DNA of 64,000 nucleotides from an uncultured Verrucomicrobiales bacterium (GTDB lineage Bacteria > Verrucomicrobiota > Verrucomicrobiia > Verrucomicrobiales > DEV007). The DNA lies in contig CALAHF010000019.1 of NCBI GenBank assembly GCA_937891465.1, forward strand, positions 1 to 64,000, written 5' to 3'. The notes below the pieces were generated by a model. That model saw nothing but the letters and a program-made list of their open reading frames with translations, had not been told where the DNA came from and did no database searches. Within the stretch, counting starts at the first letter, position 1. Each line of letters begins with the position of its first letter. Below are positions 18,676 to 24,573 of this stretch, piece by piece. The translations under genes were made by a program, and so were the position numbers.

Positions 18676-18718
18676 CGAACCATAAGGGTTGATTCGCCGA
18701 TCATACCCTATTTGTTCG
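18676..18718. repeat. 43-bp palindromic repeat R4b
   Basis: Second unit of the pair, loops AGGGT and ACCCT, ending CCCTATTTGTTCG. The stop codon (TAG on the minus strand, 18708-18710) of the lipase-like gene lies inside this unit. Confidence 0.9.
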
Positions 18719-20375
18719 TGGAAATCGATTTAGGGGTCTCGACTTGAGAAAGGATTTCAGTGACATCTTCTGGAACGGGAACACCAATGTGAATGCTGAG
18801 GATTCGCTCCAGTTCTGCGATTCCAGCTTCGGATTGATGGACAGAATGTTTGGTGCGCGGAATGACAATTTGGGATTCGGCAGCATCCATTATAGCGCTG
18901 CTGTAGGGAACCACGCCGTCAGACCATTTTTTCTGAGGCTGATCAAATCCTCGTTCGATGGCAACGATCGAATGACAGATGACGTCTGGTTTCAGAGGCA
19001 TTGAATCCATCAGCAACAACATTGGAGAATCAGGCCGCAAACCATCGATGCTGGTCGGTGGATTGGCTGCGATTTCAAGTCCAAGCGGGGTCAGACTGGT
19101 CCGACCGATATTGACGAGTTCGGTGGATACATTGACAATTTGTTGCGGCAAATCAATCAGCTTCGAGATCAGCCCACTGAACGGATTGGTCGCAAAACCG
19201 CTACCACGATGGGGTGTGGCCATGAAAACGACGCGACTAATGCTTGGAACGGGCTCGAAATACATCATATCACGAAGCACCGTTTCGTTGGATTCACTGA
19301 GACCAAGTGTCTCAAGGGGCTGGGTAAAAATCTGATCCCAGTTTGAATTCCCACTGGTCTGAAGGAGCCCTTTTGCCAACAATCCACCCATGCTGTGACC
19401 GACGACGAGAAGATCGTCATCTGATCCTCCCTGTGCTGTGCGGAACTGGTGCATTGCGGCGATTTCTCTTCGCAACCGCATGGCGGAATACGGGATAGGC
19501 GCCCCTGTTGGGTAACCGTAGCTCCAGAATTCGAATCGCTCACGAAGGGCAGGGTTGGCGAGAATTTTATTGAGGGCTTCCTTCCATGTAGCGGGGCCGG
19601 ATTTAAGTCCGTGAACGAGAATACAGGGAATTTTTCCAGCATCAAACGGAGTCAGGCGAATGAGACCCAATTTGCCCTCAAACTTAGCGTAATGAAGCAT
19701 CGCAGGCAGGTGAAATAGCTGCTTGTCCCGGAGCGCAAACCCGGTTGCGAGCGGAATTGAGTAGTCTGTAGCTAATGCGGTGGGATGTCCGTTCACGCTG
19801 ATTTTTTGTCGCACAGCGGGATCATAGATCACAAGTTTTGCGCGATCAGGCTCGCCGTTGAATTCCAATATTGCGGTGGCCGGCTGCCAGAGTCCTTCTG
19901 GAGCAATGAATGGATCGCTTTCGGAAGCGGGGGTGCATAAAGCGAGCGAAGCCCCGACGCCGTCATCACTGACAATTCGATTGAGCCCCCGTTTGATCAA
20001 CGTCAAATCAGACACATACATGTGCTCGTGATTTCTCAGATCGAGATCGCCTTTCGTGCCAGGATCCAGATCAACGATCACCTTGTTTCGCAAACTGTTC
20101 AGTGTGATCGTTTTTTGGCCCGGCTTTGGCATGGATTTTCCGGCCAGCTTTACAACAACATCATCGACCGCCTGGTTGTAAGCTTTGATGTCTTCAGGAG
20201 TTGCGGTACCTGATTGGATTCGTTCCCAGACGATGCGGGTTTCTGCCAAATCAACCTGCTTCCCGGTGAACGCACCGATTTTTTGCTTCACCACAACGCG
20301 CTGAGAGCACGCGGGGAGCAAAAATAGAATCAAGACGGCCGTCAAGGGGAGGGCCAAAGGTTGGCGATTATTCAT
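18708..20375 (-). CDS. Lipoprotein with alpha/beta hydrolase (lipase/esterase) domain
   Basis: 555 residues if started at ATG 20375, which places the lipoprotein signal directly at the N-terminus (LTAVLILFLLPACS, lipidated Cys). An upstream ATG at 20405 would add ten residues and spoil the short n-region. The mature protein has an N-terminal unknown region and then a lipase domain: oxyanion strand IPCILVHGLKSGPATW and nucleophile elbow VVGHSMGG, with candidate His in RTKHSVHQS near the C-terminus. This resembles secreted triacylglycerol-lipase/PGAP1-like esterases. The final residues (TNK) and the stop codon are encoded by repeat R4b. Confidence 0.82.
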   Translation of the reverse strand: MNNRQPLALPLTAVLILFLLPACSQRVVVKQKIGAFTGKQVDLAETRIVWERIQSGTATPEDIKAYNQAVDDVVVKLAGKSMPKPGQKTITLNSLRNKVIVDLDPGTKGDLDLRNHEHMYVSDLTLIKRGLNRIVSDDGVGASLALCTPASESDPFIAPEGLWQPATAILEFNGEPDRAKLVIYDPAVRQKISVNGHPTALATDYSIPLATGFALRDKQLFHLPAMLHYAKFEGKLGLIRLTPFDAGKIPCILVHGLKSGPATWKEALNKILANPALRERFEFWSYGYPTGAPIPYSAMRLRREIAAMHQFRTAQGGSDDDLLVVGHSMGGLLAKGLLQTSGNSNWDQIFTQPLETLGLSESNETVLRDMMYFEPVPSISRVVFMATPHRGSGFATNPFSGLISKLIDLPQQIVNVSTELVNIGRTSLTPLGLEIAANPPTSIDGLRPDSPMLLLMDSMPLKPDVICHSIVAIERGFDQPQKKWSDGVVPYSSAIMDAAESQIVIPRTKHSVHQSEAGIAELERILSIHIGVPVPEDVTEILSQVETPKSISTNK

Positions 20376-20533
20376 CAAATGAGTTTCACGGTTGGAACCA
20401 AGCATGGGAAAGAAAAAAACATAGATTTGTTTTTGGCTGGAAAAATTATGAGATAACCGCTAAAGCTGAATTCTACGCAAAATTTGCAGTCACACTTTCA
20501 AAAGAAAATACCAACCCAGGCACGCTCCCTTTT

Positions 20534-21922
20534 ATGAACTTCGAATGTCCTTCTTGCAGCATCACTCTCCAGGCCGAACCGGATCTTTCCGGAAAAACTG
20601 TAAAGTGTCCCGGCTGCAGCACCAAAATTCAGATCCCCGAAATGGAGGCTCCGCCCGAGTCAGATGGTGCCGATGAAGGCTACGAAGGTGGTGAAGAGGA
20701 ATACGATGCCGGAAACCACTTGCCTGCGCTGAATATTAGCAACGTCGATCACGGCAAGCATCCGTCGACTTTCAACCTGTGGCTTTCGGTCGCAATTGGC
20801 ATCGGCGGTACATTTTTCTGGTATCTTATCATGTTGGTTTTGAAAAAACCGGAAGGCGAAGATCAGATGTATTTTTACGAGTTGTTCGTAAATCGCGGAA
20901 AAACTCAGTACGCGACGACTTTCCTCATGTTCTTCACCCTGGGAATTCTCATTCTGAAATTTTTCAGTATCCGCAAACAGCGCCGCGCGATGATTTTGCA
21001 GGCTTTGCCACGTGATATTTCAGAAGAGATCACGCCAACGAACTTGAAGCAGTTTCACGATCACTTGTTGAATTTCCCGAAGCCGCTCCGTAACACCTAC
21101 ATTGTGAACCGGATCCGTAAAGGCCTTGAGTTTTTCTACGTTCGACAAAATAACCCCGAAGTGGCTCAAATGCTGAGTTCGCAATCCGATGTGGACGCGA
21201 ATAAAGTCGTTGGTTCTTACTCAATGGTGAAGGTGTTGCTCTGGGCGATTCCGATCATGGGTTTCATCGGAACGGTTGTCGGAATTGGTGGCGCGATTGG
21301 TGGTTTTGACGCCGTTCTTGACTCGGGCGGAGGCGATCCCAATGCGTTAACCGATGCGTTGAAGCCGGTTCTTGCCGAGATGGGATCAGCGTTCGACACC
21401 ACGCTTCTTGCATTGGTTTTCTCAATTATACTGAGTTTTCCTGCCGCAAGTTTGCAGGGTGAGGAGGATGATCTGGTGACCGACGTTGACGAATACTGCA
21501 TCGATAATTTGCTTAAGCGTCTCAATGACGGCGGTGCCAATGCCAACATGACGTCTGACGCAGGAACGCTGAAAACGATTGGCGACGCGATTGCCGCGAG
21601 CCAGCAAGACATCATGGGACAATTCGTTCAGACGCAGAAAGGCATGTCGACGAATCTCTCGAATCAGACCGAGCAGTACGAGAAAGTGGCCACGGCGGTT
21701 GAAAAGCAGCTCGAAGCCATCGGTGACCGGGCTGAGAAATACGAAACGCGTCTCGATGATGATTTCTTCAAATCGCTCGACAGAATCCGTTCGGAATCAG
21801 TTACGGCAATTACGGCTCAAGTGGGCGGCCTCTCTGAAGGCATTCACAACCTGAACGAAGTGCTCAAAGATTTGAACGGCAAGACGGTCCAAGTGACGAA
21901 AAAAGGCTGGTTCGGTCGTTGA
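20534..21922 (+). CDS. MotA/TolQ/ExbB-like channel protein with N-terminal zinc ribbon
   Basis: 462 residues. The N-terminus is a zinc-ribbon-like module with paired cysteines (FECPSCS at 3-9 and KCPGCSTKI near 29-37). After an acidic linker come hydrophobic segments at about 80-103 and 128-145, a long cytoplasmic loop, and the two signature helices with GFIGTVVGIGGAIGGF at about 240-255 and MGSAFDTTLLALVFSIILSF at about 280-300, typical of MotA/TolQ/ExbB. The C-terminal ~150 residues look helical and coiled-coil-prone. It is the channel subunit of a proton- or sodium-driven stator complex, in an operon with two ExbD-like partners (gaps of 55 and 61 bp). Confidence 0.88.
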   Translation: MNFECPSCSITLQAEPDLSGKTVKCPGCSTKIQIPEMEAPPESDGADEGYEGGEEEYDAGNHLPALNISNVDHGKHPSTFNLWLSVAIGIGGTFFWYLIMLVLKKPEGEDQMYFYELFVNRGKTQYATTFLMFFTLGILILKFFSIRKQRRAMILQALPRDISEEITPTNLKQFHDHLLNFPKPLRNTYIVNRIRKGLEFFYVRQNNPEVAQMLSSQSDVDANKVVGSYSMVKVLLWAIPIMGFIGTVVGIGGAIGGFDAVLDSGGGDPNALTDALKPVLAEMGSAFDTTLLALVFSIILSFPAASLQGEEDDLVTDVDEYCIDNLLKRLNDGGANANMTSDAGTLKTIGDAIAASQQDIMGQFVQTQKGMSTNLSNQTEQYEKVATAVEKQLEAIGDRAEKYETRLDDDFFKSLDRIRSESVTAITAQVGGLSEGIHNLNEVLKDLNGKTVQVTKKGWFGR

Positions 21923-21977
21923 TCGGTGCCGCTTTAATTTACACAACGCAGAATAAATTTTTTAAGCAAAATACGAC

Positions 21978-22808
21978 ATGGGACGACGCAGACACGACGG
22001 CGCATCGGTGAATTTATTCCCGTTCCTCAGTATTCTCGTCGCCATCATTGGGTGTCTGACTTTGATCATTGTGGTGATGACGCTGTCATCGATGAACAAG
22101 GTCGAAGGCAAGACACCGGACGAAGTTGTTCGGGCCAAGGCTTACATGGAGCTTAAAAAGGAAAAGGAGAAAGACCAAGCGGAGCAGGACAAGCTAAAGC
22201 AAACCATCAAAGATTTAATTCAACGCAGCGAACAGGATATTGCAGCGCGAGACAAATTAAAGTTGCTGAAAAACATGCTTGATAACCAGGAGGTGATCGA
22301 AGAATCGCGAACTGAGCTGATCAACGAATTCAATATTCTTTCTCAAACCAACAAGCAGCTCGATGAGAGTGATAAGTTGCTGAAAGAAGACATCAAAAAA
22401 AAGGAGGAAGAAATCGCCCGGCGCAAGCTTCCACCTGAGCCAGCCAAACTGCGCGTGACCAGTATTGGTTCCAGCAGCACGGTTAAGCCCTACTTCGTCG
22501 AGATCGGAGGACGTTCGGTGCTAATTCACCGCAGTCTGACGAAAGAGCCCACTGTCATTCCCCTCGTAGGCTTGAATCAAAGCCCCAAATTTGTGGCCCT
22601 ACTCAAAGAAATTGGCTCGAACCCGCGCCACAAACTGAACTTTCTTGTCCGTGGAGACTTTGAAGCAGTCAACGGATTGGAATTCACTTCAAAAATTGTC
22701 CGTGACTTTAACAAAGCCAACGGCACCGACATTATCCCCGGAAAGCTACCTCTCCCCAGTATGGGGAAGGTCGATTTGCAGACCTTTGCTCAATTTTTGG
22801 AACCGTGA
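21978..22808 (+). CDS. ExbD-like membrane protein lacking the channel aspartate
   Basis: 276 residues. A short basic N-terminus precedes one membrane segment (VNLFPFLSILVAIIGCLTLI, about 12-31), laid out like ExbD/TolR, but the position where ExbD has its proton-carrying Asp is a serine (PFLSILV). A coiled coil follows at about 55-150 (Lys/Glu/Asp/Gln-rich heptads), then a compact C-terminal domain (YFVEIGGRSVLIHRS, later HKLNFLVRGD). Second gene of the three-gene operon. It probably pairs with the next gene's product, which keeps the Asp. Function of the complex unknown. Confidence 0.75.
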   Translation: MGRRRHDGASVNLFPFLSILVAIIGCLTLIIVVMTLSSMNKVEGKTPDEVVRAKAYMELKKEKEKDQAEQDKLKQTIKDLIQRSEQDIAARDKLKLLKNMLDNQEVIEESRTELINEFNILSQTNKQLDESDKLLKEDIKKKEEEIARRKLPPEPAKLRVTSIGSSSTVKPYFVEIGGRSVLIHRSLTKEPTVIPLVGLNQSPKFVALLKEIGSNPRHKLNFLVRGDFEAVNGLEFTSKIVRDFNKANGTDIIPGKLPLPSMGKVDLQTFAQFLEP

Positions 22809-22869
22809 GGAAAAATCAGAAACATCACGATTCTGTTACTTAATAACCGATTACCAGGACTGAATAAAC

Positions 22870-24573
22870 ATGGCTCGACGCAACTCAGGTGACGAAGAAC
22901 GCAGCATGGACTCCCTTATGGATGCCATGACCAACGTGGTTGGAATTCTTCTCCTCATTCTCATCATCACCAGCCTCGGCATTACCACAGCGGTCGAAAA
23001 AATTCTGGATAACATCCCCGAAGTTTCACAGGAAGAGTTGGAGGAGATGAAGGTGAGCCGCAAGAAGACGCTTGATACCCTTCAGGATCTGATCCAGACC
23101 CAGCAGACAGTTATCGCCAGCCAAATCAAGCCCAAGGAGGCAGCGCAACTGAAGCTTGAGCTCGAAGAGTTCGAAAAAGACAACAAAGATTTGGCCGATA
23201 AAACTTCTGACATCGACGAGTGGAAAAATAAAGTCGAAGAAGAAAAAAAGAAGAAGGTCGCAAAGGAAACCAAAGTCATCGAATCCGAAAAAGAGGATCG
23301 CCGACTGGCTGCTATCCTTGCCCAGACTCCGGAAGCCAAGGTTGCCATTGCCCGTGAAATCAAGCTTCCGAACCCACGCCGGGCTGAGGAAGCCGACAAA
23401 GCGCACTACTTCATCTGCAAATTCAACAAGCTCTATTACATCGGTGATCCCTACGTTCACACGATGAAAATTCGGGATGTCATCGATCAAAATTTTAAAG
23501 ACTTAGCCTACACCGGCAAGGGAATTGGCTCTTACACTCACACCCTGAAAAGCACCAAGAAAAACGATGCCCGCACCGGCTACTTAGCACACGCAGAAGA
23601 TTTTCGTCTGACCCGCTCCGCTGAAAAAACGCTCGTAGAGTGGACCAAAATCAATTCAAAAATTGTTGGCCGCGACGGCAAGGAAGCTGCCGATGCCAAC
23701 CTGCTCAAACGCCTTTTCGGCAACGACGACAAACGTGAGTTTCAAGTTCATAAGTTTCGTTTTGACCGGGACAAGATCGCGGCATTTTTCAAAGACGGCA
23801 AAATGGGGCCGGCTGATTTTAAATATCACGTCTCTCCGGACGGTGATGGCTTGAAGCTCGCATTGGAGCCGAAAGAAGATGGCGGCTGGCCGATAGATTC
23901 GCTCGCGACTCCCGAAGGCAATTTTGACAAACTCTGCCGCACCCTGCAAAACCAACACGGCACCGTTTTCTATTACCATGTCGCGGCGGACAGCTTCGAA
24001 ACCTATCTCACAGCGCGGACCAAGAGTGAGACTCACCGCATCAAAGCGGGCTGGACCGTCCTTCTTCCTGACACGGTTTCGCCGCAGTCATCGATTCTTC
24101 TTGAAACGACTCGTTACAATCTCGATGTACTTCCGGATGCCAACTACATGGCGGTGGCTAACTCCTCCGGTGCTGCTTTAATTGCCGCGAACGCTACTGA
24201 AATCGCCGAGTTCACCCAGCGAGTAAATGCCGCAGCGGACAAAGCCATTGCTGACAAATCGATCACCCCTGCTGAAAAACAACAATTCGTAAACTCGCTC
24301 ACAGTCGAACGCCGGTCATGGGATGTTTCGTATCTTCAGCAGTGGGGCCTTAATATTTACCGCACCGCACTGGCTGCTTCGGAAGCTTCCGGCCTTGCTG
24401 AAGTTGTGATGGAAGCCAACGATCATCCGCCAAAAATTCCACAGATCCGCCTGTTCAGCCCGTCCTCGCCTCCGACCAAACCGAGGCCACCAGCAGTGGT
24501 GAAGCCAAAACAGACCAATACGGACCCGAACTCCAGAGGAGGCTCCAAAGCAGCAACGGTTACTCTCGACTAA
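22870..24573 (+). CDS. Large ExbD-like membrane protein retaining the channel aspartate
   Basis: 567 residues. The N-terminus reads RSMDSLMDAMTNVVGILLLI, so an Asp sits at the start of the single membrane helix where ExbD/TolR/MotB carry theirs. A long coiled coil (about 55-150) follows, then a large exported domain of about 350 residues that I do not recognise, ending in a Pro/Lys-rich tail (about 520-567). Third and last gene of the operon. It is far larger than ExbD (about 140 residues), so the complex must reach deep into the periplasm. Alternatively it is only a structural partner; the Asp argues for a real role in ion flow. Confidence 0.75.
   Translation: MARRNSGDEERSMDSLMDAMTNVVGILLLILIITSLGITTAVEKILDNIPEVSQEELEEMKVSRKKTLDTLQDLIQTQQTVIASQIKPKEAAQLKLELEEFEKDNKDLADKTSDIDEWKNKVEEEKKKKVAKETKVIESEKEDRRLAAILAQTPEAKVAIAREIKLPNPRRAEEADKAHYFICKFNKLYYIGDPYVHTMKIRDVIDQNFKDLAYTGKGIGSYTHTLKSTKKNDARTGYLAHAEDFRLTRSAEKTLVEWTKINSKIVGRDGKEAADANLLKRLFGNDDKREFQVHKFRFDRDKIAAFFKDGKMGPADFKYHVSPDGDGLKLALEPKEDGGWPIDSLATPEGNFDKLCRTLQNQHGTVFYYHVAADSFETYLTARTKSETHRIKAGWTVLLPDTVSPQSSILLETTRYNLDVLPDANYMAVANSSGAALIAANATEIAEFTQRVNAAADKAIADKSITPAEKQQFVNSLTVERRSWDVSYLQQWGLNIYRTALAASEASGLAEVVMEANDHPPKIPQIRLFSPSSPPTKPRPPAVVKPKQTNTDPNSRGGSKAATVTLD

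Follow-up and report, generated by a model that had tools for sequence, protein, structure and literature searches.

It is an open mechanistic question how work is divided between the two axle aspartates of a 5:2 motor, and a three-gene locus of an uncultured Verrucomicrobiales bacterium raises it directly: what becomes of such a motor when one of two different axle proteins has no aspartate in its membrane helix? The locus lies in a stretch of 64,000 nucleotides (assembly GCA_937891465.1, contig CALAHF010000019.1, positions 1 to 64,000; hereafter the window). It encodes, all on the forward strand, a channel subunit of the MotA/TolQ/ExbB type (gene A, 20534..21922, 462 residues), assigned from its open reading frame, Pfam and HMMER alignment; a protein of the TolR/ExbD fold without the membrane aspartate (gene B, 21978..22808, 276 residues), assigned from its open reading frame, AlphaFold2 and VIA; and a second protein of this fold with a membrane aspartate and a large exported domain (gene C, 22870..24573, 567 residues). 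The genes are separated by 55 base pairs (A-B) and 61 base pairs (B-C). Our analysis suggested that A, B and C are probably the parts of a single ion-driven motor in the inner membrane, which belongs to the ExbBD/TolQR/MotAB class and has an obligate hetero-axle and a membrane core that is exchanged as a unit.

The essential transmembrane aspartate of ExbD and TolR is absent from B and present in C. The predicted transmembrane helix of B (residues 14-43, 22017..22106, FPFLSIL) contains the motif NLFPFLSILV, in which residue 18 is Ser (22029-22031), while the membrane segment of C reads MDSLMDAMTNVVG and contains the motif DSLMD (22909..22923), with Asp14 at 22909-22911 and Asp18 at 22921-22923. 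When the shared Gly25 was used as an anchor, Ser18 of B and Asp18 of C fell at the same position. A weak N-terminal profile-profile alignment of ordinary ExbDs to B placed ExbD "SPMID" on "FPFLS" of B and the ExbD aspartate on Ser18. Thirteen ordinary ExbD proteins of this genome were aligned, and each kept the aspartate. Asp14 of C lies one helical turn to the cytoplasmic side of Asp18, and the B and C pair thus holds two membrane carboxylates, both on C. A preliminary description, made from the letters alone, had proposed two different ExbD-like proteins, the first with Ser, forming an asymmetric pair with a single aspartate. The two unlike proteins and their asymmetry stand, but the single aspartate does not, as C has a second acid.

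The kinship of B and C with TolR and ExbD emerged from structure models together with profile matches. Neither protein scored above the curated cut-off of Pfam ExbD (PF02472), and Foldseek by itself found no significant match to a solved structure in either case; a second look with VIA gave TolR/ExbD. The AlphaFold2 models had a mean predicted local distance difference test score of 82 for B and 84 for C (mostly over 90 in the exported domain of C), and in both a single transmembrane helix is followed by a TolR/ExbD periplasmic fold. The best solved match was E. coli TolR (5by4) for B (Z 7.3, 88 residues, 2.8 Å) as well as for C (Z 5.2, 95 residues, 4.1 Å, model range 158-399), and ExbD (8pek/8vgd) was also among the VIA matches for both. 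A profile match gave 98% probability of homology between B and C. Although the Z scores are modest and would be insufficient by themselves, the kinship is persuasive because TolR tops the list for both models. In B, a long helix or coiled coil (residues 48-148, 22119..22421) leads to the TolR-like periplasmic domain (residues 161-260, 22458..22757). The exported domain of C (about residues 158-545, 23341..24504), correctly anticipated as large, was modeled as a TolR-like fold with insertions, a helical part and a Pro-rich end.

Gene A matched Pfam MotA_ExbB (PF01618) at 27.2 bits against a curated cut-off of 22.9, in agreement with its earlier assignment as a channel subunit, and HMMER aligned it to ZorA-like 8vvn, PomA and TolQ chains. 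Its third transmembrane helix carries the nearly invariant block WAIPIMGFIGTVVG (residues 237-250, 21242..21283), in which P240 and T247 correspond to P141 and T148 of ExbB and to P151 and T158 of PomA (numbering from PMC12215075 and PMC10374538). Together with T290 in the fourth helix (Thr289-Thr290, 21398..21403; 290 is the conserved pore threonine), alignment to TolQ and PomA gave A the proline, the threonine seven residues on and the fourth-helix threonine. The subunit ends in a helical cytoplasmic tail (about residues 330-450, 21521..21883) that matches helical proteins and ZorA tails. At its N-terminus, residues 5-28 (20546..20617) show a CPxC...CPxC pattern (C5-C8, C25-C28) resembling a zinc ribbon. 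The zinc ribbon claimed before holds as a cysteine pattern that is conserved in Verrucomicrobial relatives, but its matches to Pfam and NCBIfam models stayed below the cut-offs.

The three genes travel together. Among 85 distinct loci with over 3 kilobases downstream, 84 have the A-B-C trio in this fixed order (81 by pattern and three more on inspection), which bears out the co-conservation proposed for them, and residue 18 of B is nearly always non-acidic. Loci with a tailed A, then B and then C, occur in Verrucomicrobiota, in Planctomycetota and in one cyanobacterium (Xenococcus PCC 7305); in one family (f4), 63 of 68 genomes carry the motor, one copy each. At residue 18, B has Ser in Verrucomicrobiales and Ala in Planctomycetes; Kiritimatiellae-type loci have Cys, Ala, Ser, Pro or Asn there. 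Asp18 of C is near-invariant across the protein family, with an acid four residues before it in most loci. Locus L084 has Ser18 in B, Asn18 in C and an aspartate only at -4, so that the usual site is non-acidic in both chains.

The membrane core, taken as the membrane half of A and the transmembrane helices of B and C, occurs in Verrucomicrobiales in two alternative states, which Asp14 of C tracks. The S-core (27 loci) has Ser18 in B, Asp14 in C and Thr289 in A; the D-core (30 loci) has Asp18 in B, Val14 in C and Ala289 in A. No mixed three-site combination was found among these loci, nor in a larger count (84 vs 33) in which A289 was misread in a few rows where the tail has a similar motif; a separate reading gave correct values for most of the non-redundant set. 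When site 289 was masked in a tree of the A core, D-cores grouped as a single clade (100/98) within S-core rows (100/99 and 99/97), so that in this clade the symmetric state derives from an asymmetric ancestor; on this tree, the D-core has a single origin inside S-core diversity. An aspartate in the first ExbD-like protein, which the preliminary description counted against its proposal, thus does exist, both in more distant relatives whose A is short and in this derived clade, where it is accompanied by the loss of Asp14 in C and by the change of Thr289 to Ala in A. This pointed to a second coordinated state and leaves the idea unbroken. One candidate for a reversal, L121, was rejected, as it lies inside the D clade in the full-length A tree but just outside it, weakly (93/22), in the core-only tree.

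Two acids per axle is the count in S-cores, in D-cores, in Planctomycete-type loci and in most of the Kiritimatiellae type. The stronger statement that there are always two was rejected: the short-A relatives, which have further downstream genes, carry an aspartate in B together with Glu or Asp at -4 and Asp at 0 in C, three in all, and an Asn-type (Ser at -4 and Asp at 0 in C) also breaks the pattern.

The history of the two states points to their exchange. Both core types occur inside each of three genera (g24, g223 and g224) of family f4. On an rpoB tree of 42 genomes of this family, core type required 14 changes, at least 12 of them on starred branches, which is no fewer than the 13.5 obtained with shuffled labels, and on the tree of the C periplasmic domain it required at least 10. 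Distances of the A tail, the B periplasmic domain and the C periplasmic domain correlated with those of rpoB (rho 0.68, 0.62 and 0.71, respectively) and hardly with core type (0.06, 0.03 and 0.01). The transmembrane segments of B and C followed core type instead (rho 0.87), and their correlation with rpoB in cross-type pairs was -0.03 and -0.04; the membrane half of A was intermediate, its correlation with type being 0.59-0.61. The A tail and the periplasmic domains followed rpoB to the same extent in cross-type pairs (0.61-0.69) as in same-type pairs (0.63-0.72). Between types, core identity stayed flat at 54-59% while periplasmic identity spanned 47-86%; within types, core identity climbed from 63 to 98%. 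At the DNA level, identity drops in three places, in A after the zinc ribbon and at the starts of B and C, and recovers between them. Judged from these sequence comparisons, the membrane core seems to have been repeatedly swapped as one linked unit, with the A tail and the periplasmic domains staying with the genome. That three non-adjacent segments are often exchanged and never mixed is the strongest argument obtained that A, B and C most likely work together in one complex, and it is a genetic argument that does not depend on structure. The assembly of Akkermansiaceae UBA2381 holds an S-core and a D-core operon (L029 and L071) on separate contigs, which may be a setting in which exchange occurs or may reflect contamination.

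In the proposed motor, a ring of A would surround an axle of one B helix and one C helix, probably at 5:1:1 and hence in the 5:2 class. B and C are placed in the same axle because a B homodimer in S-cores would have no carboxylate. C would hold the ion-binding carboxylates, Asp18 with Asp14, either of which may carry the ion, and B of an S-core would occupy the second axle position without one. The axle would rotate, and the periplasmic domains of B and C, both TolR-like, together with the large C domain, would pass force to an envelope target. In the current view of ExbBD and MotAB, each proton gives a 36 degree step that is driven by the two axle aspartates (PMC12215075). The asymmetry could alter this stroke, with one carrier per 72 degrees rather than two per 36 degrees, or with a two-acid relay on one helix; by analogy, only one side of an S-core axle would be loaded, or Asp14 and Asp18 would act in series. 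A further step, which we regard as possible but doubtful, is that whole-core exchange has repeatedly turned an obligately asymmetric axle, with both carboxylates on one helix, into a symmetric axle like that of ExbD and vice versa, and that the two cores may differ in ion (a Na+-like site of three threonines vs the Ala type of TolQ/ExbB) or in strokes per turn.

With respect to the ion, window A has threonine at all three positions aligned with T158, T185 and T186 of PomA, which make up the sodium site of this stator in Vibrio (PMC10374538). In the D-core, A resembles TolQ in having alanine where PomA has T185. The use of Thr289 as a sodium marker was weakened by the finding that 10 of 11 ordinary ExbB copies of the same genome also have threonine there, and L294 at the position of PomA A190 is hydrophobic, as in H+ motors. 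The coupling ion is not readable from the threonines of A because threonine is common in ordinary ExbBs and the A190 position holds leucine.

Several points weigh against a single motor with a hetero-axle and an exchanged core. The axle could consist of C only, and B could bind at another place. One of the 85 loci, L135, has a D-type A and B and no C in the next kilobase. Distant short-A relatives carry an aspartate in B plus two acids in C, and two acids per axle is therefore no rule. A single origin of the S/D difference in this clade makes the three-site association one event, of which only the survival through exchange counts as repeated evidence. Finally, most pairs have nearly reached saturation (36%) at four-fold sites. 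The absence of C in L135 may itself reflect loss or relocation.

The first of these points leads to a rather unlikely alternative in which a C homodimer is the axle in the A ring, B is an accessory outside the pore and its missing aspartate is mechanistically meaningless. The near-invariance of Asp18 in C would fit this, as would residue 18 of B, which varies between lineages as if free to drift. But the B helix is, together with that of C, the part most strongly linked to core type, B and C have helix register and fold in common, Ser18 is strictly kept in S-cores within Verrucomicrobiales, and D-cores gain the B aspartate exactly at the ExbD position.

It also seems unlikely that the core pattern reflects repeated convergent co-adaptation of the membrane parts to two optima, or transfer of the whole operon. 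In favor of these readings, synonymous sites near saturation make DNA-level proof of import thin, the periplasmic parts of some clades (L215/L204) are slightly more diverged in cross-type pairs, and the UBA2381 assembly holds both types. Convergence is at odds with the one well-supported clade of D-cores, and whole-operon transfer would have moved the A tail and the periplasmic domains too, yet these follow rpoB equally whether or not the paired cores are of one type. The cross-type pairs that are closest (periplasmic identity >80%) are few; in them, four-fold identity was 40-46% in the core and 57% outside it, compared to 54% and 52% in same-type pairs, and this extra divergence of cross-type cores points to exchange rather than rapid adaptation.

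A third explanation, which we consider improbable, is that two motors share A, a working A5C2 and a silent or regulatory A5B2. The AglQ and AglS proteins of Myxococcus offer a parallel, as it is likewise not known whether they form homo- or heterodimers (PMC9389320). In S-cores, however, an A5B2 motor would lack any carboxylate even though B is kept almost everywhere, and the strict three-way matching fits one complex better. A Zorya-like anti-phage system is very improbable: A scores 35.8 bits against PADLOC ZorA2, a weak resemblance, aligns to the ZorA-type chain 8vvn and has a long cytoplasmic tail, but B and C have no ZorB match (coiled-coil noise only in PADLOC), there are two axle genes and no ZorC/D/E neighbors, the motor is near-universal in one family at one copy per genome, unlike a patchy defense island, and searches of viral and plasmid collections found none.

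Compared to known systems, the window motor combines shared and distinct features. First, like ExbB-ExbD and TolQ-TolR (PF01618, PF02472), it has the proline and threonines of A and, in B and C, one N-terminal transmembrane helix with a TolR-like fold. It differs in its two non-identical axle genes, one without the aspartate, in the extra Asp14 of C, in its long coiled coils and large C domain, and in the lack of a PF02472 match. Second, the AglRQS gliding motor of Myxococcus likewise consists of one MotA-like and two MotB/TolR-like proteins (PMC9389320), but AglQ and AglS are both described with a conserved aspartate, and the window has no gliding genes nearby. Third, A of the S-core has threonine at the three PomA positions, one of which (289) is often threonine in ordinary ExbBs of this genome too; unlike PomAB/MotAB, the motor has no OmpA-type peptidoglycan domain or flagellar context, and L294, aligned with PomA A190, is a hydrophobic residue of the kind seen in H+ motors. 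Fourth, it shares with Zorya ZorAB the tailed MotA-like subunit and differs in the lack of a ZorB match and of ZorC/D/E and in its near-core distribution.

Heterologous TolR pairs in the PVC group (Verrucomicrobia/Planctomycetes) have already been published: a tolQ-like gene is followed by two different tolR-like genes (PMC12204202). Our short-A loci (e.g., L167 and L170) fit this description. The family of the window differs in its tailed A, in B without an aspartate and in having no vWA transducer gene, and the published passage makes no mention of a missing B aspartate. In the searchable literature, we found no report of this missing residue, of its coupling to the other two sites or of core exchange. 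Hybrid engines are hard to build in the laboratory, where one of 14 worked (PMC11500496), and core exchange supplies a set of natural engine chimeras. The interchangeable cores place the acids either on one chain or one per chain, in some cases beneath similar periplasmic domains and in genomes of close relatives, and symmetric drive can thus be tested directly against asymmetric drive.

The surroundings of the motor are conserved among near relatives only. As the preliminary description had stated for the window, no TonB, Pal, flagellar, gliding or Zorya partner gene is conserved next to the motor across related loci, and no membrane-anchored transducer gene of the vWA, TonB or TolA kind adjoins it, neighbors not being conserved across families. 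A scan for promoters and terminators scored no better than shuffles. Downstream in the window lies a gene for an FG-GAP protein, and the neighbors there are common to near relatives only. Upstream and divergent lies a gene for an alpha/beta-hydrolase-like lipoprotein (18708-20405, reverse strand), which is kept in 27 loci of near relatives and not in other families.

Other arrangements were seen among more distant loci. In three Planctomycetes loci (L080, L088 and L099), B has the large exported region (about 650-730 residues) and C has about 331 residues, the reverse of the window. Several Kiritimatiellae-type loci (L146:2494-4548, and similarly L155, L157 and L161) encode an exported protein of about 650-700 residues between A and B; that of L146 has NHL (beta-propeller) repeats and is a candidate load or TolB-like partner. 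In L186-L191 and L194, another MotA-like family is followed by TolR-like pairs with the motif SFLDCICCGFGA, both with the aspartate. One 6 Mb genome (G000) gave 15 MotA_ExbB and 17 ExbD matches, with some clusters of one ExbB gene followed by three ExbD genes (contig C126).

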